Positions 8,169 through 18,724 of a DNA stretch of 37,202 bases are shown here, piece by piece. The stretch is from NCBI GenBank assembly GCA_024762395.1, contig JANTHP010000003.1, positions 1-37,202 of the forward strand, written 5' to 3'. The notes under the pieces are model-generated. The model had not been told where the DNA came from and made no database searches. It saw nothing but the letters and a program-made list of their open reading frames with translations. The position numbers and the translations under genes are program-made. Position 1 is the first letter of the stretch, and each line of letters opens with the position of its first letter. The stretch comes from Anaerolineae bacterium. Its GTDB lineage: Bacteria > Chloroflexota > Anaerolineae > Promineifilales > Promineifilaceae.

Positions 8169-8852
8169 ATGCACTATGAAATAGCAGGGACAACCCTACA
8201 AACATTAGATATTCGCCTGAATGCGGGCGAATCAGTCTACACCGAATCAGGCGGCATGGCCTGGATGCGCGGCAGCATCGCCATGAGTACCGACACAAGG
8301 GGCGGCTTACTCAAAGGATTAGCCCGCTCGCTGGCTGGCGAATCGCTTTTTCTCACCACCTACACCTGTAAAAGCGGCGACGGAATGATTACATTCACTC
8401 CCGAAGCGCCCGGTTCCATCTTGCCGGTGGATTTGCGCGGCGGCGAGAGCCGTATCTGTCAAAAAGATGCTTTCATGGTTGCCCAGGAAACGGTTACTTT
8501 AGAAGCACACTTTCGCAAAAAGCTGGGCGCCGGTCTTTTTGGCGGCGAGGGGTTTGTGCTGCAGAAGCTCACCGGCCCCGGTCTGGCTTGGGTGGAAATC
8601 GCCGGCGAAGTGCGTGAGTATGAACTCCAACCCGGCGAAAAGATGAAAATAGACCCCGGTCACATTGCCATGTATGAGCCGTCGGTCAATTACGATATTC
8701 AACGGGTGAAGGGCGCGAAAAACATTTTATTTGGCGGCGAAGGGTTGTTCCTGGCAACGCTTACCGGCCCCGGCAAGATATGGCTGCAAAGCCTCCCCCT
8801 TTCCAATTTAGCCGCCAAGTTGATGAAGTATATGCCTGTTAAGAGCAGTTAG
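8169..8852 (+). CDS. AIM24/TIGR00266 family protein
   Basis: A 227-aa protein of the TIGR00266/AIM24 family, an all-beta fold of unknown biochemical function (the eukaryotic namesake is mitochondrial). Family features seen are the opening YEIAGTTLQTLDIRLNAGES, SGGMAWM near 28-34, and two repeats of the type GGEGxxLxxLTGPGxxW (about 123-140 and again about 195-212), the expected internal duplication. No membrane segment or signal peptide is seen. ATG at 8169 follows a strong AGGAGG. The gene stands alone on the plus strand between two minus-strand units and ends at a strong terminator. No role can be assigned from its neighbours. Confidence 0.88.
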   Translation: MHYEIAGTTLQTLDIRLNAGESVYTESGGMAWMRGSIAMSTDTRGGLLKGLARSLAGESLFLTTYTCKSGDGMITFTPEAPGSILPVDLRGGESRICQKDAFMVAQETVTLEAHFRKKLGAGLFGGEGFVLQKLTGPGLAWVEIAGEVREYELQPGEKMKIDPGHIAMYEPSVNYDIQRVKGAKNILFGGEGLFLATLTGPGKIWLQSLPLSNLAAKLMKYMPVKSS

Positions 8853-9010: not shown

Positions 9011-9715
9011 CTATTTTAAGGATTCGCCCATTGCCGCCATCTGGCTGGCAACGCTGCTATCCACAACCTGATCGCCGGCCCGTACAATCAAGCCGCCCAA
9101 AATACTGGGGTCAACCTTGAATTCAACGGCGGCGCCTTTCAGCGACTTCGTCAAATTGGCTTGTTCTTCATCCGTTAACGGCAGCGCGCTGGTGACAACA
9201 GCCTTATCGGCAGACATGTCCGCCAATCCAGCCGGCGCTTTAGCAAAGAAATCGGCAATAATGGCCCGTTGACGTTTTTCATCCAACGCCTCGCCAACCA
9301 GCTTGTTCGCTGCTGCAATCGAAATCGAAGCAACCTGCCCGCGCAGCTCGGAGAGAATACGGTTTCGTTCCGCTTCCGCATCCTGCGCCGCTGCCGCTAC
9401 AATCGCTTTAGCCTCTTCACGCGCTTTGGCTTCAATACCTTTGGCCGTCTCTTCCGCTTGCACAGCCGCATCAGACCGCGCTTTGGCTGCTTCCGCACGA
9501 GCCGCATCCAAAATCTTCTTAGCCTCCGCATCCGCATTATCGCGGGCGATAGCTGCCTGCCGTGCATCTTCCAGTCCCTTGGCAATACGCGCCTTGCGTT
9601 CTTCCAAAGTCTTGAGAATTGGGCCGTAAGCATAGTTCGTCATCACCAACAGTAGAATGACGAAGAGCAGAATCTGCATCAAAAGGTAGCCTAAATTAAT
9701 ACCTAGTGCATCCAT
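9011..9715 (-). CDS. atpF: ATP synthase Fo subunit b fused to the C-terminal domain of delta
   Basis: Peripheral-stalk subunit of F-type ATP synthase, 234 aa. Residues 8-29 form the single membrane helix, and 35-150 a long Ala/Glu/Lys/Arg coiled coil typical of b. Residues about 165-234 leave the b pattern and match the delta/OSCP C-terminal domain: VVTSALPLTDEEQ, then EFKVDPSILGGLIVRAGD, then VVDSSVASQM. The delta N-terminal helical domain, which normally binds the alpha subunits, is absent, so this is not a complete b-delta fusion like that of mycobacteria. It is last of the Fo genes (atpZ/I-B-E-F); no F1 gene follows, because a convergent gene on the other strand begins. ATG at 9715 starts MDALGINLGYLLMQ. 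Confidence 0.88.
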   Translation of the reverse strand: MDALGINLGYLLMQILLFVILLLVMTNYAYGPILKTLEERKARIAKGLEDARQAAIARDNADAEAKKILDAARAEAAKARSDAAVQAEETAKGIEAKAREEAKAIVAAAAQDAEAERNRILSELRGQVASISIAAANKLVGEALDEKRQRAIIADFFAKAPAGLADMSADKAVVTSALPLTDEEQANLTKSLKGAAVEFKVDPSILGGLIVRAGDQVVDSSVASQMAAMGESLK

Positions 9716-9760: not shown

Positions 9761-10009
9761 TTAGGCAACAAAAATGAGGATCAAGGCTACCACTAGTGCG
9801 TAAATAGCCACCGCCTCAGCCAGAGCAACACCCAAAATCATGTTACCCGTAATTGTACCGGCTGCATCGGGGTTGCGGGCAATACCTTGCACCGCGCCGC
9901 CAACAACAATACCAACACCGGCGCCAGCGCCAATCGCGCCTGTCATTGCCAACCCGGCGCCCAACAATTTTAAGCCTTGCGCAATCGCTTCAGCTGCTTG
10001 TACATCCAT
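9761..10009 (-). CDS. atpE: ATP synthase Fo subunit c
   Basis: Proteolipid of the rotor ring, 82 aa, two membrane helices joined by the polar loop ARNPDAAG. The ion-binding carboxylate is Glu65 in ALAEAVAIY. The residue after it is Ala rather than Ser/Thr, and the helix-1 position that is Gln in Na+ enzymes is Val32, so proton coupling is expected. ATG at 10009 follows GGAGGA; a longer frame upstream is not needed. It lies between atpB and atpF; the 189-bp gap to atpB holds a MITE-like element, which may affect the relative expression of c, needed in excess over a. Confidence 0.95.
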
Positions 10010-10198: not shown

Positions 10199-11278
10199 TT
10201 AATGTTCTTCACTATGTCCTTGCGTTGCCATAGACATGAACGTTAATGTCAACAGGGCAAAGACGGCCGCTTGCAAAATGCCGACAAAGAACTCCAAATG
10301 CCAGAATAATAAGTTACCAATCGGCAGCAGCGCCCCGATCACAAACAAGAGAATCTGGCCGGCAAAGATGTTACCCAAGAGCCGGAAGGCGAAGGAAACA
10401 ATCTTGAAAATTTCGCTGATGAACTCCAAAATACCAACGCCGGAATCCATAATTGCCAGCGGGTTTTCTTTGATTTTATCGCCATCCCAAACGAAGAACT
10501 TTTTCCAGTATTTCATTCCCAGCGCTTTCATGCCGTAATACTGGGTCATTACCACAGAAATGAGGGCGATAGCCAGGGTGAAATTGAGGTCTGTCGCCGC
10601 CGCGCGCACATAGGGGACGATCGTCCAATCGGCGTCGGCTGGTTTTTCACCGGCATCGTTAAGCGGCGCTTTAGTAAGGAGAATGCCCTGCCGCATGTCG
10701 CCAAGGTTCGCTTCGTCGGCTGTGTGGTGGGCCTCTTCCTCAATATGCTTGATTTCGTCTTCGCTAAGATGTTCGCCTTTTGCCGCTGCGTCAGCCTCGG
10801 CTGCCTCTACGGCCAGTTCTGCCGTGTGGTGGGGTAAGTTTTCCCATTTGCCAAAGGAATCTACAAATGGGACCAACTCCATCCAGTTAGCGACGACAAT
10901 CCATAAAATAAAGGTCATGAAGAAGGGGAAAAAAGCTTTGGCCCACTTACCGGCCGCATTTTCGACATAGCCGTAAGCAAATTCGACGATTAGCTCAAAG
11001 AAGTTGTAGCCGCCGGTGGGGACTTCATCGGCGGTACGCGATTTGGCCTTCAGGCTGAAGGTCATCGCTAATAAAATGATCAAGGTGAGCAGTGTGGCCA
11101 GGAAGGTGTTAGTGAAACCGCCGCCAAATAAACCGCCGAGAAACTCTTTGCCGCCTGGCCAAGACCACAAAATCTCACCCGGCAGCTGAATCACCGGCAG
11201 CACCGGCGTTAGCAGAGGGATGACACTTTGTAGCACGAGCACAATGAGCGCTGCATAAACGATGTATCTTTTTTTCAT
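10199..11278 (-). CDS. atpB: ATP synthase Fo subunit a
   Basis: Proton-channel stator subunit, 359 aa against about 240-270 usual. The essential arginine is Arg299 in SFAFRLLGNIFAG, with the GNIFAGQILL helix and the C-terminal helix FFVGILQAAVFALLTL as in the family. The extra length is a hydrophilic, His/Glu/Ala-rich insertion at about 142-222, directly after the NWMELVPF segment, placed in the loop between helices that flank the channel entry. There is also a long N-terminal part before the first conserved helix (about 56-76). It overlaps the upstream small gene by ATGA and heads the core Fo genes. The fold is certain; the insertion's role is unknown. Confidence 0.95.
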   Translation of the reverse strand: MKKRYIVYAALIVLVLQSVIPLLTPVLPVIQLPGEILWSWPGGKEFLGGLFGGGFTNTFLATLLTLIILLAMTFSLKAKSRTADEVPTGGYNFFELIVEFAYGYVENAAGKWAKAFFPFFMTFILWIVVANWMELVPFVDSFGKWENLPHHTAELAVEAAEADAAAKGEHLSEDEIKHIEEEAHHTADEANLGDMRQGILLTKAPLNDAGEKPADADWTIVPYVRAAATDLNFTLAIALISVVMTQYYGMKALGMKYWKKFFVWDGDKIKENPLAIMDSGVGILEFISEIFKIVSFAFRLLGNIFAGQILLFVIGALLPIGNLLFWHLEFFVGILQAAVFALLTLTFMSMATQGHSEEH

Positions 11279-11556
11279 GTGTCCGTTTTTACCTCCGGAT
11301 CGTTGGATTCTTGAGGTTGGAGTGCGTCTTGGGCGCGTTGAACGGCCGTTAAACTCAAGCGCACTGTTAAATACAAGGCAACAGGAACGCTGCCTACCAT
11401 CAGTAAAACTGTAAAAATTCGCGTTTCCAGATATTTATCAATTGCCATACCCGCGCCCAAAGCAAGGCCAATAAGGATTACAATAAGACACCCCACTTGA
11501 CCAACCACACTGGCCATTAACGCCGCTTGATTGATTTGTTTAGGAGATTTTTCCAC
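11275..11556 (-). CDS. AtpZ/AtpI-family small membrane protein of the ATP synthase operon
   Basis: A 93-aa protein with two hydrophobic helices (about 19-36 and 45-65) separated by DKYLETR, like the AtpZ/AtpI group found in front of Fo genes, which helps c-ring assembly or Mg2+ supply. The start is GTG at 11556 preceded by GGAAGAG; its stop overlaps atpB (ATGA). The C-terminal tail is acidic. The exact subgroup (AtpI or AtpZ) cannot be fixed by eye. It is the first gene of the atp unit, behind the promoter at 11587-11614. Confidence 0.78.
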   Translation of the reverse strand: MEKSPKQINQAALMASVVGQVGCLIVILIGLALGAGMAIDKYLETRIFTVLLMVGSVPVALYLTVRLSLTAVQRAQDALQPQESNDPEVKTDT

Positions 11557-11615: not shown

Positions 11616-11689
11616 TCAAAAATAGCAAGATGTTGGAGATAGAAACAGAGGAAGAATTTCATCTTCCTATATTTCTTGCTCTATCTTGC
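11616..11689 (-). terminator. Terminator hairpin after nuoN
   Basis: On the minus strand GCAAGAT (overlapping the nuoN stop) pairs with ATCTTGC, and an inner AGGAAGA pairs with TCTTCCT around a 6-base loop. TATTTTTGA follows. It separates the nuo and atp units. Confidence 0.6.
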
Positions 11690-13186
11690 CAAAACAAAGA
11701 AAGCGTCGGCGGCTGTCCGGGTCCATTCAAAAATGGGGCCGGCAAAAATACCCAGGTAAAAAATGAAAAACAGGGAAAACGCCAATCCTACTTTTGCCCC
11801 GCGCGAGACGGGGATGGGGTCGTCTTCGTTTTCTGAGCGATACAGGTACATATATTTGACGGCCGATAAGTAGTAGTACAACGCCACAAACGCATTCAAA
11901 ATACCCAGCAGCGCCAGCCACCACAAGCCTGCATTCACGGCCGAGCGGAATAGGAAGAACTTGCCAAAGAACCCGGCCGTTGGCGGGATGCCACTCAATG
12001 AAAGCAGCGCAAACATCATCACCAGCGCCAAATAGGGCGAGCGGCGGCTCAAGCCGGAGAAATCCTCCAACTCATCCGAGCCGATGCGGTTGCTGACAAT
12101 GGTAATGACGCCAAAGGCGGCAATGTTGGTGAAGATATACATCAGCAGATAGTACATCGTCGCGCTGGAGCCGTCCGGAGACAACGTAACCAGGCCAATC
12201 AAAGCGTAACCGGCCTGGGCGATGCTGGAATAGGCCAACAGCCGTTTGAAGTTTTTCTGGAAGATGGCGACAAAGTTCCCCAGTGTCATGGTGATGACAG
12301 TTATCGCGATCAACATGGCCCACCACATACTGGCATCGCTTGGCTCGCCCAAAACGCCGGTAGTGAAAACGCGCAAGAAAACGGCAAAACCAGCCGCCTT
12401 CGATGCAGTTGAAACATAACCGGTGAACGGTGTCGGCGACCCTTCGTACACATCGGGCGTCCAGAAGTGGAAGGGAACGGCCGATATCTTAAAGCCAAAC
12501 CCAACCATAATCATTACGGCTGATAAAATCACAACGGCATTTACTTCAGTTGGAATTTGCTGGAAACCGCCAAAAATACTGCCTAAGATGTACAGGTTTG
12601 TTTGCCCCGTTAATCCGTATAGCAAACTCATACCGTACAACATGACGCCGGTGGCAAACGCGCCGTAGATAAAATACTTCATCCCCGCTTCTGAGGAACG
12701 CGGATCTTTGGTTGCAAATCCGGCCAGGATGTATGAGGAAATGCTGGCTGTTTCCAACGCCACGTAAAGCATAATCAGGTCTGCCGATGCGCCCATAAGG
12801 CTAAAGCCGATGGCGGCCGTAATAAGCAGCGCATAATACTCGCCTTTTTGTAAATGTTCTACGTCCAGCGAGAGCAAGGCCGTTAACATCAAGGCAACGA
12901 GAAATATGACATGGAAAACAAGCGCAATCAAATCAAACCGAATCATGCCGCCCCACATCAAGCTGGTTCCGATGTCGGTGGCGTTGTTAGGTTCGCCTGT
13001 GGCAAGCCACAACCCCAGCGTGGTGACGAGGATGGCAAACGCGCCCCAGGCCGTCAGCAAACCAACGCGGCGGCGTTCTTCCGGCTTAACCAGCCGGTCG
13101 TATAGCAAAACGGCCGCTAACAAAATAACCAGGCCAATTTCTGGCACAAGGGCCAATACCCAGGATTGGGTGATATTGGGACTCAC
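11681..13186 (-). CDS. nuoN: NADH-quinone oxidoreductase subunit N
   Basis: Antiporter-like proton-pumping subunit of complex I, 501 aa, about 14 membrane helices. The key motif GFGFKISAVPFHFWTPDVYEG (about 235-255) carries the TM7 lysine, and the TM5 glutamate lies in LYVALETASISSY. GTG at 13186 directly follows the nuoM stop (TAA then GTG); its ribosome site GGAGGT lies inside the end of nuoM, so the two are coupled. It is last of the nuo membrane-arm genes here. A hairpin overlaps its stop codon. Normal family length. Confidence 0.95.
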   Translation of the reverse strand: MSPNITQSWVLALVPEIGLVILLAAVLLYDRLVKPEERRRVGLLTAWGAFAILVTTLGLWLATGEPNNATDIGTSLMWGGMIRFDLIALVFHVIFLVALMLTALLSLDVEHLQKGEYYALLITAAIGFSLMGASADLIMLYVALETASISSYILAGFATKDPRSSEAGMKYFIYGAFATGVMLYGMSLLYGLTGQTNLYILGSIFGGFQQIPTEVNAVVILSAVMIMVGFGFKISAVPFHFWTPDVYEGSPTPFTGYVSTASKAAGFAVFLRVFTTGVLGEPSDASMWWAMLIAITVITMTLGNFVAIFQKNFKRLLAYSSIAQAGYALIGLVTLSPDGSSATMYYLLMYIFTNIAAFGVITIVSNRIGSDELEDFSGLSRRSPYLALVMMFALLSLSGIPPTAGFFGKFFLFRSAVNAGLWWLALLGILNAFVALYYYLSAVKYMYLYRSENEDDPIPVSRGAKVGLAFSLFFIFYLGIFAGPIFEWTRTAADAFFVLAR

Positions 13187-14824
13187 TTATGCACCTCCAA
13201 ACCAACTGAAAAGCGTTGTTGCAGCCGTCTGCACTGTGTCCAGGAACGTCACTGCATGCTGCGCATCGGTAATGCGATCTACGACCGGCGCCATACCCGA
13301 TTGGACTATCGGAGCGATGACGGCCGGAAAAACGCCGATCACAATCAAAATAACAGAAAACATAATCAAGGCGACCTTATCCAAAGCGAACAATGGCCGC
13401 ATATCGTGCCATTTTTCGCCCTGGTATTCGCCGAAGAACACTTTGCCCACCGCGCGTAAAATATAGGCGGCGGTAATGATGATGCCCAGCGCGGAAATAA
13501 TGGCGATGATCGGGTAGTAATTGGCCGGATTGAGGCCGAAAACTGCGCCCGAAAGATTCAGGCTGCCGCCCTGCCAAACGCCCAGGAAAATGGGGAATTC
13601 AGCCAGGAAGCCGGACAAACCGGGCATGCCCATGCCGACCAAACCGCCGATGATGAAGGGGACGACCAGCCAGGGCAGCGGTTTGCCCATGCCGTCCAAA
13701 TCGTCCATATTGCGCGTGTGCGCCCGGTCGTAAATCATACCGACGACGGAGAAGAAGAGGGCGGTCATGACGCCGTGGCTGACCATCTGAATGCCGGAGC
13801 CGAGGAACCCTTTGGCGTTGAGGGCGGCAAACCCCATGGAGACCAGCCCCATATGGCTGACGCTGGAGTAGCCGATGAGATATTTCATGTCTCGCTGGCG
13901 CATGGCAACGAAGGAGCCGTAAACGACATTGATAAGGGTCAAAAAGATGATGAAGGGCATCCAGTAGACGGTGCCTTCGGGCAAAATCTGAATGCCGACG
14001 CGCATGGAGGCGTAGGCCCCTAATTTCATCAAAACGCCGGCATGAATCATGGAAACGGCCGTTGGCGCCGCCACATGACCATCGGGAGACCAGTTATGCA
14101 AAGGCCAGATACCGGCCAGCACGGCAAACCCCAGGAACAACGGCAAGAACCAGACCTGTTGGATGGCAAACGGGAAATTCGCCTCCGACCAAATCCGTAA
14201 ATCAAACGTCGGCGCAGTCGCCGTACTGTATTCCGGCAGTTGGAAATACAACACCAGGAAGGCGATGAAAGAGATAAAACTGCCGATGAGCAAATACAGC
14301 GTCAGCTTCATAGACGCATATTCGCGCCGCTCCTTCCAGCCCCAGATGACGATCATAATGTACATGGGCAGCACAGCCAGCTCATAGAAGAAAAAGAGCA
14401 AAAAGCCATCCACTGCCGCAAACACACCTTGAACGCCAGCCACCAGCAGCATGAAAAAGGCCATAAATTCGCGGGGACGCTCCGTAATGCCCCACGAAAT
14501 CATCACCCCGCCCAGGCCGACAATGGACGTTAGCAGTACCAACGTAGCGCTCAAGCCGTCCACACCTAGAATGTAATTGACGCCAATGCTGGGAACCCAG
14601 GCATGTTCCTCCAGGAACATGAGCGTATCGGCCCAGCGTGTCCCGGCCGGCGGCAAATTTTGGTTATAGGCCACATAAACGTATAACGACAAAATCAAAC
14701 CGAGGATCATCGTCGCTAACGCCAACATGCGGGCATTTTCCCCCCGCTCTTTAGGCATCAGCAGAATAATAGCTGCCGCTACCAGCGGGGATAACACGAT
14801 TATTGATAGAAATGGGAATTCCAT
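13187..14824 (-). CDS. nuoM: NADH-quinone oxidoreductase subunit M, second copy with altered TM7
   Basis: Antiporter-like subunit, 545 aa, about 14 helices. It keeps the TM5 glutamate (Glu148 in FFFYELAVLPMY) and the TM8 lysine (Lys267 in AGVLMKLGAY). At the TM7 lysine position, where the neighbouring NuoM has AFAIKVPIWPFHTW, this copy has GFAVLAGIWPLHNW, so Leu236 replaces the proton-relay lysine. WSPDG also replaces the usual WLPDA. It is clearly a paralogue, not a broken gene: the frame is intact and full length. The order nuoL-nuoM-nuoM-nuoN matches complex I forms with an extra NuoM reported in several phyla. Its contribution to pumping is open. Confidence 0.9.
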   Translation of the reverse strand: MEFPFLSIIVLSPLVAAAIILLMPKERGENARMLALATMILGLILSLYVYVAYNQNLPPAGTRWADTLMFLEEHAWVPSIGVNYILGVDGLSATLVLLTSIVGLGGVMISWGITERPREFMAFFMLLVAGVQGVFAAVDGFLLFFFYELAVLPMYIMIVIWGWKERREYASMKLTLYLLIGSFISFIAFLVLYFQLPEYSTATAPTFDLRIWSEANFPFAIQQVWFLPLFLGFAVLAGIWPLHNWSPDGHVAAPTAVSMIHAGVLMKLGAYASMRVGIQILPEGTVYWMPFIIFLTLINVVYGSFVAMRQRDMKYLIGYSSVSHMGLVSMGFAALNAKGFLGSGIQMVSHGVMTALFFSVVGMIYDRAHTRNMDDLDGMGKPLPWLVVPFIIGGLVGMGMPGLSGFLAEFPIFLGVWQGGSLNLSGAVFGLNPANYYPIIAIISALGIIITAAYILRAVGKVFFGEYQGEKWHDMRPLFALDKVALIMFSVILIVIGVFPAVIAPIVQSGMAPVVDRITDAQHAVTFLDTVQTAATTLFSWFGGA

Positions 14825-14913
14825 ATGTCTATTCCAGTTTCAAGAGCTGCAGGGTTGCGGGGGCGCGGAATTCTCTTGCTTCGCTTCCTCGCCGCTTCGC
14901 AACTGCGCAACTT

Positions 14914-16455
14914 CTAACCTAATATCTTTGTTACCGTATCGTTAATAAACACCACCAACCACTGCGGCCAAATGCCCAAACTGAGCATCAGCGCCATCAG
15001 CGGCCAAATGACCAGGTGTTCGCGCAAAGTCATATCTTTTAAGCCCAACCATTCCTTTTTCACCGGGCCGTGCAGCGTTTGGCCGATTCCTTTGAGGATG
15101 TAGGCCCCGGTCATGAGCAGGCCGAGCATGGAAAGAGCTAACTGAACCGTAAACACGTTCCAACTGCCGCGCACAACCATGAATTCGCTGACGAAGCCGT
15201 TTAAGCCGGGCAAACCAAGCGAAGCCATGCTGGTAAAAATCAGAATCGCGCCGTAAACGGGCAAAACCGTCCAGATACCGCCGAATTTCTTCAAATCGCG
15301 GGTGTGTGCGCGTTCGTAGATGACGCCGACGAGGAAGAACATGCCCGCCGCCGACAAGCCGTGATTGAACATTTGGAAGATGGCGCCGTTGGTTGCCAAA
15401 ATGGCGTCGTTGGTCAACGCTTCGCTGCTGCCGGGCATTCCGGCGACGTAAGCGTAAACGGCGATGCCCAGGACAACAAAGCCCATATGGTTGATGGACG
15501 AGTAGGCGACCAATCGCTTGAAGTCCCATTGACCGAAGGCGGCGTACCCGCCGATGACGATGCTGAGCATCCCCAACCAGGCTAGAACGAAAGCGGTCGT
15601 GTGCGCCTGTTCCGGGAAAAGGGGGATGACCAATCGCAAGAAGCCATACGCGCCTAATTTCAGCAAAACGCCGGCCAGAATCATGGAACCGGCCGTCGGC
15701 GCCTGTGTGTGGGCGTCGGGCAGCCAGGTGTGGAAAGGCCAGATGGGTACTTTGATGGCAAAAGCCAGCATGAAGGCCCAAAAGGCTACATTTTTAACTG
15801 TGCTGACCGCTAATCCCGTCCCTGGCAGTGTGCCGCCGTCCAAAGCTACCCACTTATCCATCAATTCAATGATGTCGAAGGTGCCGGTTGCCAGTCCTAT
15901 CACCTGAATGGAAAGGAGCAATCCGAGGCTGCCAGCCATCGTGTAAATGAAGAATTTGAAGGAAGCGTAATCGCGGTCGGCGCCGCCCCACAATTTGATG
16001 AGGAAGTACATGGGAACCAGCCCGAACTCCCAGAAGATGAAGAAGATGATGAGGTCGAAGGATGCGAATAACCCCAACATGGCCGTTTCCATCAATAGGA
16101 AAAGGAACATGAACATCTTCACCCGCTCTTTGATGCCGAAGGAGGCCAGAATGGAAAGCGGCGTCAATATCGTGGTGAGCAGGAACATGGGCAGGCTGAT
16201 GCCGTCAATGCCCATGTGGTAGCTGGAGCCGATGGCCGGGAACCACTCTTTCTGGACGACAAATTGCAAGTCGGCCGCCGCTCGGTCGTAGTTGAACCAC
16301 ATGACCATGACCAGCGCCAATGGGATAAGGCTGAGGGCAAAGGAGAGCCGCCGGATGAGTGTTTTTTCGTCTTCCGGCAGGAGAAAAATGATCAGCCCGG
16401 CCAGAAGGGGGAAGAAAATGGTTACGGTCAGGAGATTATCTTGAATAAAGTTCAT
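14914..16455 (-). CDS. nuoM: NADH-quinone oxidoreductase subunit M, canonical copy
   Basis: Antiporter-like proton-pumping subunit of complex I, 513 aa. All relay residues are in place: Glu143 in FIFWEFGLVPMY (TM5), Lys235 in AFAIKVPIWPFHTWLPDAH (TM7), and Lys266 in AGVLLKLGAYG (TM8). ATG at 16455 follows AGGAGA, and it is 13 bp after the nuoL stop. The next gene downstream is a diverged second nuoM, 89 bp away. This copy is the likely orthologue of E. coli NuoM because it keeps the complete motif set. Confidence 0.95.
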   Translation of the reverse strand: MNFIQDNLLTVTIFFPLLAGLIIFLLPEDEKTLIRRLSFALSLIPLALVMVMWFNYDRAAADLQFVVQKEWFPAIGSSYHMGIDGISLPMFLLTTILTPLSILASFGIKERVKMFMFLFLLMETAMLGLFASFDLIIFFIFWEFGLVPMYFLIKLWGGADRDYASFKFFIYTMAGSLGLLLSIQVIGLATGTFDIIELMDKWVALDGGTLPGTGLAVSTVKNVAFWAFMLAFAIKVPIWPFHTWLPDAHTQAPTAGSMILAGVLLKLGAYGFLRLVIPLFPEQAHTTAFVLAWLGMLSIVIGGYAAFGQWDFKRLVAYSSINHMGFVVLGIAVYAYVAGMPGSSEALTNDAILATNGAIFQMFNHGLSAAGMFFLVGVIYERAHTRDLKKFGGIWTVLPVYGAILIFTSMASLGLPGLNGFVSEFMVVRGSWNVFTVQLALSMLGLLMTGAYILKGIGQTLHGPVKKEWLGLKDMTLREHLVIWPLMALMLSLGIWPQWLVVFINDTVTKILG

Positions 16456-16468
16456 TAGTATCTCCTAA

Positions 16469-18724
16469 TTAAGGGATGATTGTGAATAACTGGTTGAACC
16501 AACCATAGTTAATCGCTAAAACGACAACGGCTAAGGCGACGGCGATGAGCATGGAAACCAGGGTGTATTCCTGGATGCGGCCGGTTTGCAACTGCCGGAA
16601 TTCTTTGGTCATGGCCAGGAATTGGTCTTTGAGCCAATCTACGCCGTCGCTGATGACGCGCTGTTCGAAGGTTTTGACGTACCCGCCAATGGTGTAAAAG
16701 GTGCGGGCGATGAGGTGCAGGGTTCCGTCTATCAAGCCCTTGTCCATGATTTCATAGACGATGACTTCGGAGAAGTAGATGGTGGGGTTGATGAATACGG
16801 CCTGGTATAGCTCGTCCCAATACCATTTGTTTTGCAAAAATTGGTGTAAGGGGCCGAGCGGAGCGATGAGGGGGTCGCGTTCGCCGGATTTGAGGGGTTT
16901 ACGGCCGTATACCCACCAGCCTAAGAACAACCCGCCTAACGCCACCACCAACGAGGTTGCCAATGGGAACCAGTTAAAGGGCAGCGTCTCTAATCCATGC
17001 GCCAGCAGCCCGGCATGTTCCAACTCACTTAATGAATGCTCAATCGTCGCGCCCACGTAATGGTGGAAGAAATTGTTGTTCACCATCGGCCCCAAAATCG
17101 GGAACTCTTCGGGGATGCCAGCCCAACCGGCGGCGACGGCGAAGATGGACAACAAAATCAGCGGGATTGTCATGTAGTTGTTGCTTTCATGGGCGTGTTC
17201 GGCCAGCGGCGTGCGCGGTTCGCCCAAAAAGGTGAGCGAAATCTGGCGCATCGTGTAAAACGCCGTCAGCAAAGCGGCAATCGCCAGCGTCCAGAAAACC
17301 ACCCCGGCGAACGCATCGCCGTGGCTGCTTTGGAAGAAGGCGTCGGCCAAAATTTCATCTTTCGACCAGAATCCGGCCGTCAAAATGGGGAAGCCGGAGA
17401 GGGCGAAGCCGCCGATGACGAACGTCCAGAACGTCTTGGGCATCTTTTTAGCCAGACCGCCCATGTTACGCATATCTTGCGGGTCGGTGTGATGGTCGTG
17501 AACGTGTCCCGCGCCGTGTTCCATGCCGTGAATGATGGAGCCGGAGCCGAGGAAGAGGAGGGCTTTGAAGAAGGCGTGGGTGATGAGGTGGAAGGCGGCG
17601 GCGACGTATGCGCCGATGCCGATGGCGGCGACCATGTAGCCCAACTGGGAGATGGTGGAGTAAGCCAGCACCCCTTTTACGTCGTTTTGGGCGACGGCGA
17701 TGGTGGCGGCCATGAAAGCGGTAAAGGCGCCGATGCCGCCGATGATGAGACCGACGTTGGGATTGCCTTCCATCCCCACCGCAATGAGGGGGAAGATGCG
17801 GACGATCATGTAGACGCCGGCGGAAACCATCGCGGCGGCGTGGATGACGGCGCTGACGGGGGTGGGGCCTTCCATGGCGTCGGGCAGCCAGACGTGCAGT
17901 GGGAACTGGGCCGATTTACCGACGGTTCCGGTGAAGAGGAGCAGCGCCATCACGCCGAGCATGGCCGGGCCAACGGCCGTTGCCGCCGCCTCTAACCCGT
18001 GTGCGGACAACGCTTCGCTAAAGTTGAGCGTGCCAAAGACGGAGTAGAAGTAGACGATGCCCAAGAGCATAACCACATCGGCGATACGGGTGGTAATGAA
18101 GGCTTTGATGCCTGCTTTGCGCGGGGTGATTTTCTTGGGGTCGTCGTAGTTGCGGGCGTACCAAAAACCGATGAGGGCGTAGGAGCAGAAGCCCATGATT
18201 TCCCAGCCGACGAAAAGCAAGAGCAGGTTGTCGGCGACGACGAGGGTCAACATGCCGCCGGCGAAGAGGGACATGAAGGCGAAGAAGCGGGAGAGCAGCG
18301 GCTCTTCCTGTCCATGATTGGGAACGCCGCGTACTTGGCCTTCCGGCTGTCCATAATTATGGTAGCCGACGCTGTAAATCATAATCATGGCGATGATGAA
18401 GGGGATGGCGAAGAGCATAACGGCCGTTAACGGATCCACCGCTACGCCCATTTGCAGCCATAATCCTTTGGCATAATCGCCAAACGGCAGCCAATCCACT
18501 GCGCTGTGAATGGCTGTGGGGTGTTCGGCCAGATGGTCGACATCGCGGCCAAACATATCAAAGGCTACTATCCAGCCCATCACCCAGGAGGCGATGATGG
18601 CCGCCCAGGCCAACAGCCAGCTCAATGTCTTGTTATGCTTGGTAAACAGCATAATCAAGAAGAAACTGAGTAATGGCATGGCCGGAATGAGCCAGGTCAA
18701 TAATTGAAGCGTTTGTTCTGTCAT
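16469..18724 (-). CDS. nuoL: NADH-quinone oxidoreductase subunit L, long form
   Basis: Distal antiporter-like subunit, 751 aa against about 610-660 usual. Core motifs: LLLFVGWEIMGFCSYALIGFW (TM5 Glu), FTGTVGKSAQFPLHVWLPDAM (TM7 Lys), and the His-rich MEHGAGHVHDHH loop near 420. The C-terminus carries the lateral amphipathic helix that clamps the membrane arm. Here the stretch from about 650 to the last TM (about 728-745) is long and includes YFSEVIVYEIMDKGLIDG and FEQRVISDGVDWLKDQFLAM. A longer lateral helix fits an arm holding an extra NuoM. The spacer before ATG at 18724 is a simple repeat with no ribosome site visible. Confidence 0.95.
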   Translation of the reverse strand: MTEQTLQLLTWLIPAMPLLSFFLIMLFTKHNKTLSWLLAWAAIIASWVMGWIVAFDMFGRDVDHLAEHPTAIHSAVDWLPFGDYAKGLWLQMGVAVDPLTAVMLFAIPFIIAMIMIYSVGYHNYGQPEGQVRGVPNHGQEEPLLSRFFAFMSLFAGGMLTLVVADNLLLLFVGWEIMGFCSYALIGFWYARNYDDPKKITPRKAGIKAFITTRIADVVMLLGIVYFYSVFGTLNFSEALSAHGLEAAATAVGPAMLGVMALLLFTGTVGKSAQFPLHVWLPDAMEGPTPVSAVIHAAAMVSAGVYMIVRIFPLIAVGMEGNPNVGLIIGGIGAFTAFMAATIAVAQNDVKGVLAYSTISQLGYMVAAIGIGAYVAAAFHLITHAFFKALLFLGSGSIIHGMEHGAGHVHDHHTDPQDMRNMGGLAKKMPKTFWTFVIGGFALSGFPILTAGFWSKDEILADAFFQSSHGDAFAGVVFWTLAIAALLTAFYTMRQISLTFLGEPRTPLAEHAHESNNYMTIPLILLSIFAVAAGWAGIPEEFPILGPMVNNNFFHHYVGATIEHSLSELEHAGLLAHGLETLPFNWFPLATSLVVALGGLFLGWWVYGRKPLKSGERDPLIAPLGPLHQFLQNKWYWDELYQAVFINPTIYFSEVIVYEIMDKGLIDGTLHLIARTFYTIGGYVKTFEQRVISDGVDWLKDQFLAMTKEFRQLQTGRIQEYTLVSMLIAVALAVVVLAINYGWFNQLFTIIP

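Follow-up and report, generated by a model that had tools for sequence, protein, structure and literature searches.

Subunit b fused to the C-terminal domain of delta, without the delta N-terminal domain, in an F-type ATP synthase of the Anaerolineae

The FO locus and the fused gene

The window, by which we mean the whole stretch of 37,202 nucleotides of Anaerolineae DNA that was analyzed, contains a minus-strand run of genes in the order nuoL-nuoM-nuoM-nuoN-atpI-like-atpB-atpE-(b delta tail), in which the fusion gene is the last.

9011..9715, minus strand: atpF-atpH' fusion, subunit b plus the delta/OSCP C-terminal domain, 234 aa (profile matches, relatives)
9242..9715, minus strand: b part of the fusion, residues 1-158 (NCBIfam b models reaching residue 158; predicted model)
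9017..9223, minus strand: delta/OSCP C-terminal domain of the fusion, residues 165-233 (PF00213 and PDB fold matches)
9761..10009, minus strand: atpE, encoding the 82-aa subunit c, with its ATG at 10009 (profile match)
10199..11278, minus strand: atpB, subunit a, 359 aa (PF00119, E 1.2e-37)
11275..11556, minus strand: atpI-like gene (ATPase_gene1; PF09527, 24.7 bits, just under the cut-off of 26.6; same place in relatives)
11681..13186, minus strand: nuoN, the complex I subunit gene immediately upstream of the FO genes (TIGR01770, E 2.8e-125)
13187..14824, minus strand: nuoM copy (TIGR01972, E 6.7e-132)
14914..16455, minus strand: second nuoM copy (TIGR01972, E 6e-155)
16469..18724, minus strand: nuoL (NF005141, E 3.5e-176)

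Because a promoter-like site separates nuoN from the atpI-like gene, the FO genes are only possibly cotranscribed with nuo. The two nuoM copies form a tandem pair (13187-16455) between nuoL and nuoN, and one of them could encode a lineage-specific antiporter-like subunit. Subunit a (10199-11278) has a long acidic, histidine-containing insertion at about residues 135-220, a place where other Chloroflexota a subunits have loops of varied length. On the plus strand, an AIM24-family gene (8169-8852; PF01987, E 8.6e-74) has its 3' end facing the 3' end of the fusion gene.

The fusion ORF starts with ATG, ahead of which an AGAGG-like ribosome site could be read by eye. Two Pfam families match the encoded protein: PF00430 at residues 11-140 (E 1.5e-23; 83.7 bits, cut-off 28) and PF00213 at residues 165-233 (E 6e-15; 56 bits, cut-off 22.3). 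The second match spans positions 98-172 of the 172 in the profile and covers its last 75 positions, and a short linker joins the complete b to the delta tail. The delta N-terminal helical domain, which sits atop F1, is absent from the ORF as judged by the PF00213 profile. Read from its sequence, the gene is a complete b subunit running directly into the delta C-terminal domain, and both families were matched by 16/16 aligned relatives.

An AlphaFold2 single-chain prediction, made from 60 aligned sequences drawn from the window and from loci of public genomes, gave a model with a mean pLDDT of 86.4 and a pTM of 0.52. The model is laid out as a membrane helix, a long helix (8-140), a second helix (146-158), and then a small alpha/beta tail. 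When the model was compared by VIA-align with 997 chains picked by Foldseek, the predicted tail matched solved delta/OSCP tails from Chloroflexus (9itj_S), E. coli (6oqr_W), and human (8h9e_O) with Z of about 10, at 1.0-1.5 A over 65-66 residues. A mycobacterial b-delta chain of 445 aa was also among the structural matches. The flagellar protein FliH from the FliH-FliI complex (5b0o) matched the model with Z 6.5 over 85 residues, a modest value in a range where chance arrangements occur, and the fusion protein scored 19.8 bits against the Pfam FliH family, under the cut-off of 24.1. The fusion profile was colinear with the archaeal V-type E subunit over profile positions 63-237, also a modest resemblance. 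FliH and the V/A-type E subunit thus share with the fusion protein a colinear coiled coil plus delta-tail-like head but differ in their partners, which are FliI or the V/A-type head.

The preliminary description had presented this gene as a subunit b with only the C-terminal domain of delta. The PF00430 match, the PF00213 match to positions 98-172, and the predicted fold bear this out; the peptides that it quoted occur in the translation of the ORF, and the tail does have delta similarity (residues 165-233, E 6e-15). Its contrast with the mycobacterial b-delta fusions, which hold the whole delta, also stands. Those proteins (PDB 7nkd, 7jg5) likewise have b and delta in one chain, but the chain is 445-448 aa long, with the whole delta, and is accompanied by a second, separate b, whereas the 234-aa protein here has the tail only and a single PF00430 match.

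The F1 genes and the type of the enzyme

The source genome (500 contigs, 94% complete) yielded one PF00213 match, which is the fusion, one gamma, and one alpha-beta set. The genes for alpha, gamma, beta, and epsilon lie together on contig C6, apart from the FO genes, and no delta-like gene stands beside them on that contig. An additional PF00006 match on contig C231 was identified by eye as Rho. By sequence, the F1 is F-type and is encoded away from the FO, and no other F- or N-type set was found in the genome. A single PF00430 match per genome was found in 18/18 class genomes tested, with no b/b' pair; given one b gene, the stalk must be a homodimer bearing two tails.

The enzyme could alternatively be an N-type ATPase, or its b-delta gene could derive from one. 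Delta is described as absent or fused to b in N-ATPases (ProAD, PMC11738941), where a delta tail on b is already known (ProAD, PMC11738941; COGcollator, PMC5706428), and it is fused to b here as well. N-type b subunits (TIGR03321; for example at L067 and L071) share the architecture of a b coil followed by the delta C-terminal tail, without the delta N-terminal domain, and TIGR03321 aligns over fusion residues 12-232, but with a score of 56.5 that is far under its cut-off of 224.7. N-type ATPases differ, however, in having their own operon order and an N-type alpha and in usually accompanying an F- or A-type enzyme as an additional one. The reported N-type order is beta-epsilon-X-X-a-c-(b delta)-alpha-gamma (PMC11738941), whereas the order here is nuo-atpI-a-c-(b delta), with F1 genes in F order (alpha-gamma-beta-epsilon) on another contig. 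In an alpha tree of 66 rows, two N-type alphas split off at 100/99, and the fused genomes, the alpha of this enzyme included, grouped together with weak support (63/79) inside the F-type alphas. The fusion tail is 34-54% identical to full deltas of the class and 36-51% identical to standalone mini-deltas, versus 29-42% for four N-type tails. Moreover, the class has five N-type cases that differ from the fusion genomes in having an alpha that is about 50% identical and adjoins the b-delta gene. On these grounds an N-type identity or origin is highly improbable. The five class members in question (G154, G155, G165, G172, and G190), in which the best alpha is N-type-looking and adjoins a b-delta gene, agree with a remark in ProAD on the Chloroflexota genus T78 (PMC11738941).

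The window enzyme is thus neither of the known forms, the delta tail on b of N-ATPases and the whole b-delta of mycobacteria. A limited literature search, covering titles and abstract openings, found no printed description of an F-type fusion of this kind in Chloroflexota or Anaerolineae.

Distribution of the fusion and stages of delta reduction

PF00213 was present in 146/151 genomes of the phylum and 280/297 genomes of the class. By hand count, 104 of these 280 encode a separate delta of normal length (E at or below 1.7e-23), and the remaining 176 have only a weaker, tail-type match; coordinates were inspected for part of the 176, which include F-type fusions, N-type b-delta genes, and standalone mini-deltas. 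A scan of named genomes returned 341 stretches encoding a relative of the fusion protein, and the best 80 were kept. Among these best 80 of 341, every locus encodes such a protein, in most cases matched across residues 1-234, and the taxa include Promineifilum, Ardenticatenaceae, Anaerolineales, and others. Of the 80, 73 have a nuo gene upstream, and the available stretch shows none for the other 7. No F1 gene was seen in the locus in 78; the two exceptions have beta-like matches of 588 and 346-382 aa, which we read as A/V-type subunits. The placement of FO genes directly behind nuoL-nuoM-nuoM-nuoN, split from the F1 genes, is conserved across the group. The fusion is also carried by Anaerolinea thermolimosa IMO-1 and Leptolinea tardivitalis YMTK-2, both cultured strains, each of which has a single PF00213 match (profile 104-172) and, at a distance from it, a single alpha. 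When viral contigs were scanned with the fusion profile, no such fusion turned up.

The tail-only fusion therefore recurs, at the level of sequence, in many families of the class, alongside standalone tail-only deltas. In some members of the class and of the phylum, deltas reduced to 83-120 aa occur in canonical operons (L054, L060, L064, L065, L068, L070, and L074, and also L184, L185, L187, and L188). The standalone deltas of 83-84 aa at L070 (8644-8895), L184, and L185 consist of the C-terminal domain only, in otherwise canonical operons. Chloroflexus-like genomes have deltas of 157-185 aa with a shortened N-terminal part. At L186 (genome G166) the order is nuo-a-c-b-delta; the tail-type delta there has not merged with b, and alpha is found on a different contig. 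The b stop touches or overlaps the delta start in L049, L054, L060, L064, and L070, so that fusion would need only a small change, and such unfused neighbors may show what preceded it. Because the Chloroflexus-like and mini-delta genomes occupy other places in the alpha tree than the fused genomes, the delta N-terminal domain was probably lost more than once. One class thus holds canonical, mini-delta, unfused-but-split, and fused stages, and it supplies a wide range of natural F-type enzymes that lack the delta N-terminal domain.

The apparent absence of this domain could have been due to an assembly error or frameshift that cost delta part of its sequence, the source genome being a draft in 500 contigs. 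Dozens of independent genomes, however, those of the two cultured strains among them, have the same fusion with hardly any difference in length. Since all 16 aligned relatives match both families and all 80 kept loci encode a relative, we consider chance or assembly error ruled out for practical purposes. Alternatively, a separate, strongly diverged protein might supply the N-terminal domain, and the preliminary description had suggested that a separate short delta may exist. The conservation of the alpha N-terminal helix despite the missing usual partner would fit such a protein. The single PF00213 match in the source genome, the lack of anything delta-like around its F1 genes, and the single match in 24/25 further genomes argue against it. 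These 25 comprise 18 fused F-type genomes, 5 N-type genomes, the unfused G166, and G355, which was dropped as it has an alpha fragment only; the exception to the single match is G155, an N-type case with a second PF00213 match at a contig end.

We also searched 24 genomes, at E up to 10, with a delta N-terminal profile built from 18 full deltas. Both full-delta genomes were matched (2.6e-9 and 4.5e-4); the sensitivity of the profile is limited, as the 4.5e-4 belongs to a true full delta (G357). In the 17 fused genomes, 3 of them in 1-3 contigs, nothing recurring or convincing was found within that sensitivity, the best matches (0.014 and 0.05) being interrupted by two in-frame stops and by one, respectively. 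From the other 5 genomes, whose delta is mini or shortened, came a single weak match (0.08). A separate short delta has thus not been borne out, and we regard a hidden N-terminal domain as unlikely.

Attachment to alpha and the number of stalks

The alpha N-terminal helix is what delta normally grips. By eye, 34/34 fused F-type genomes (16 of the first set and 18 of the further set) retain this helix, with its four hydrophobic positions at a 4-4-3 spacing; a count by regular expression (15/16 fused, 29/33 full) was too strict and was replaced by the count by eye. In ordinary F-type enzymes, delta is described as touching two alphas through its N-terminal region and one through its C-terminal region (PMC12229609). 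In the FliH dimer, one delta-tail-like domain is reported to bind FliI residues 2-21 and the other an arginine cluster (PMC9114704). Given the FliH-FliI precedent, the retained helix, and the ordinary contact between alpha and the delta C-terminal domain, we think that the tails grip alpha directly. Two fusion copies would pair through the b helix to give two C-terminal domains per stalk, one or both of which would grip the retained alpha helix in the way that the FliH dimer holds FliI. With no delta N-terminal domain to fill the central cavity atop F1, the enzyme might then no longer be limited to one stalk. Our main reading, with a probability of about 0.72, is that this is an F-type b-delta-tail fusion whose homodimeric tails grip alpha directly and in which the one-stalk limit is lifted. 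Comparison with these systems suggests direct gripping of the helix by the C-terminal domains as the most likely mode of attachment.

Whether the freedom to carry several stalks is used is a separate matter. The number of a subunits sets the protons spent per ATP by an ATP synthase. Engineering work published in 2025 showed the delta N-terminal domain to hold the enzyme to a single stalk and hence to one a subunit (PMC12229609). A PS3 enzyme from which this domain had been removed and whose tail had been joined to alpha assembled, made ATP, had single, double, and triple stalks and about twice as many a subunits, and had an H+/ATP ratio of 5.8 versus 3.0 (PMC12229609). This engineered delta-deltaN-alpha enzyme and the delta-alpha fusion of Acidaminococcus fermentans also lack the N-terminal domain and keep the tail, but the tail is joined to alpha, whereas in the window enzyme it is joined to b (PMC12229609). 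The authors of the PS3 work made the covalent link to alpha out of concern that the tail alone would not bind stably (PMC12229609).

A natural parallel comes from the same phylum. The Chloroflexus PDB structures (9itj and related), whose entry titles name Chloroflexus aurantiacus, contain 18 alpha chains in 6 entries, 12 delta chains in 6, 72 b chains in 18, and 36 a chains in 18; this is an alpha:delta:b:a ratio of 3:2:4:2 per entry and, taken with the titles, two stalks. The predicted tail matched that of the Chloroflexus F1FO at 1.4 A over 65 residues, and one of its delta chains, 9itk_W, is represented in the structure library by the tail only, with 70 residues. The feature that goes with several stalks there, a delta N-terminal domain that is reduced or missing, is found here too. 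The Chloroflexus delta (157 aa) is, however, a separate gene that partly keeps a shortened N-terminal part, whereas the fusion is without it, and the two stalks and two a subunits of that enzyme have been solved, whereas a second stalk in the window enzyme would be putative.

Lacking the delta N-terminal domain, the window enzyme should therefore be allowed several stalks. A large part of the class may have a natural multi-stalk F-type ATP synthase, in which two or three (b-delta tail) dimers, each with its own a subunit, would serve one rotor; by analogy with the enzymes above this is a tentative reading, somewhat short of even odds. If it is true, more protons would be spent per ATP, which would permit ATP synthesis at low proton-motive force and would suit the slow-growing anaerobes of the group. 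Nearly as likely is a single stalk (b2, a1) that uses both tails of one b dimer, each taking an alpha helix or the two pairing like FliH, so that the second C-terminal domain substitutes for the lost N-terminal domain. In its favor, the single b gene puts two tail domains on every dimer, and the two tails of the FliH dimer are described as playing different parts on one and the same ATPase subunit (PMC9114704). Against it stand the solved Chloroflexus enzyme, in which a shortened delta goes with b4, delta2, and a2 per alpha3, and the PS3 enzyme without the N-terminal domain, which allowed up to three stalks (PMC12229609). The question is directly approachable in cultured A. thermolimosa IMO-1 and L. 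tardivitalis YMTK-2.

Two further features of alpha were considered as signs that it had been re-tooled for the shortened delta, but neither correlation held in wider sampling, which counts against the main reading. Position -8 of the N-terminal helix is hydrophobic in 33/33 alphas from the phylum sample that go with a full delta, D/S/A in 16/16 fused genomes, and R in 9/9 genomes with a shortened delta N-terminal part and in 5/7 with a mini-delta. It is Q, A, T, or R, by eye, in 10/15 full-delta class members (L189-L203), and co-evolution with the domain loss was rejected; the polar residue appears to be a lineage trait. An insertion of ~50 aa before GGSLTALP, present in 16/16 fused alphas versus 0/51 other alphas of the first set, is missing from 8/18 further fused F-type genomes (26/34 in total have it), which ruled it out as part of the mechanism. 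An example of the insertion is found in the alpha at L038 (4973-6640), at about residues 313-362.
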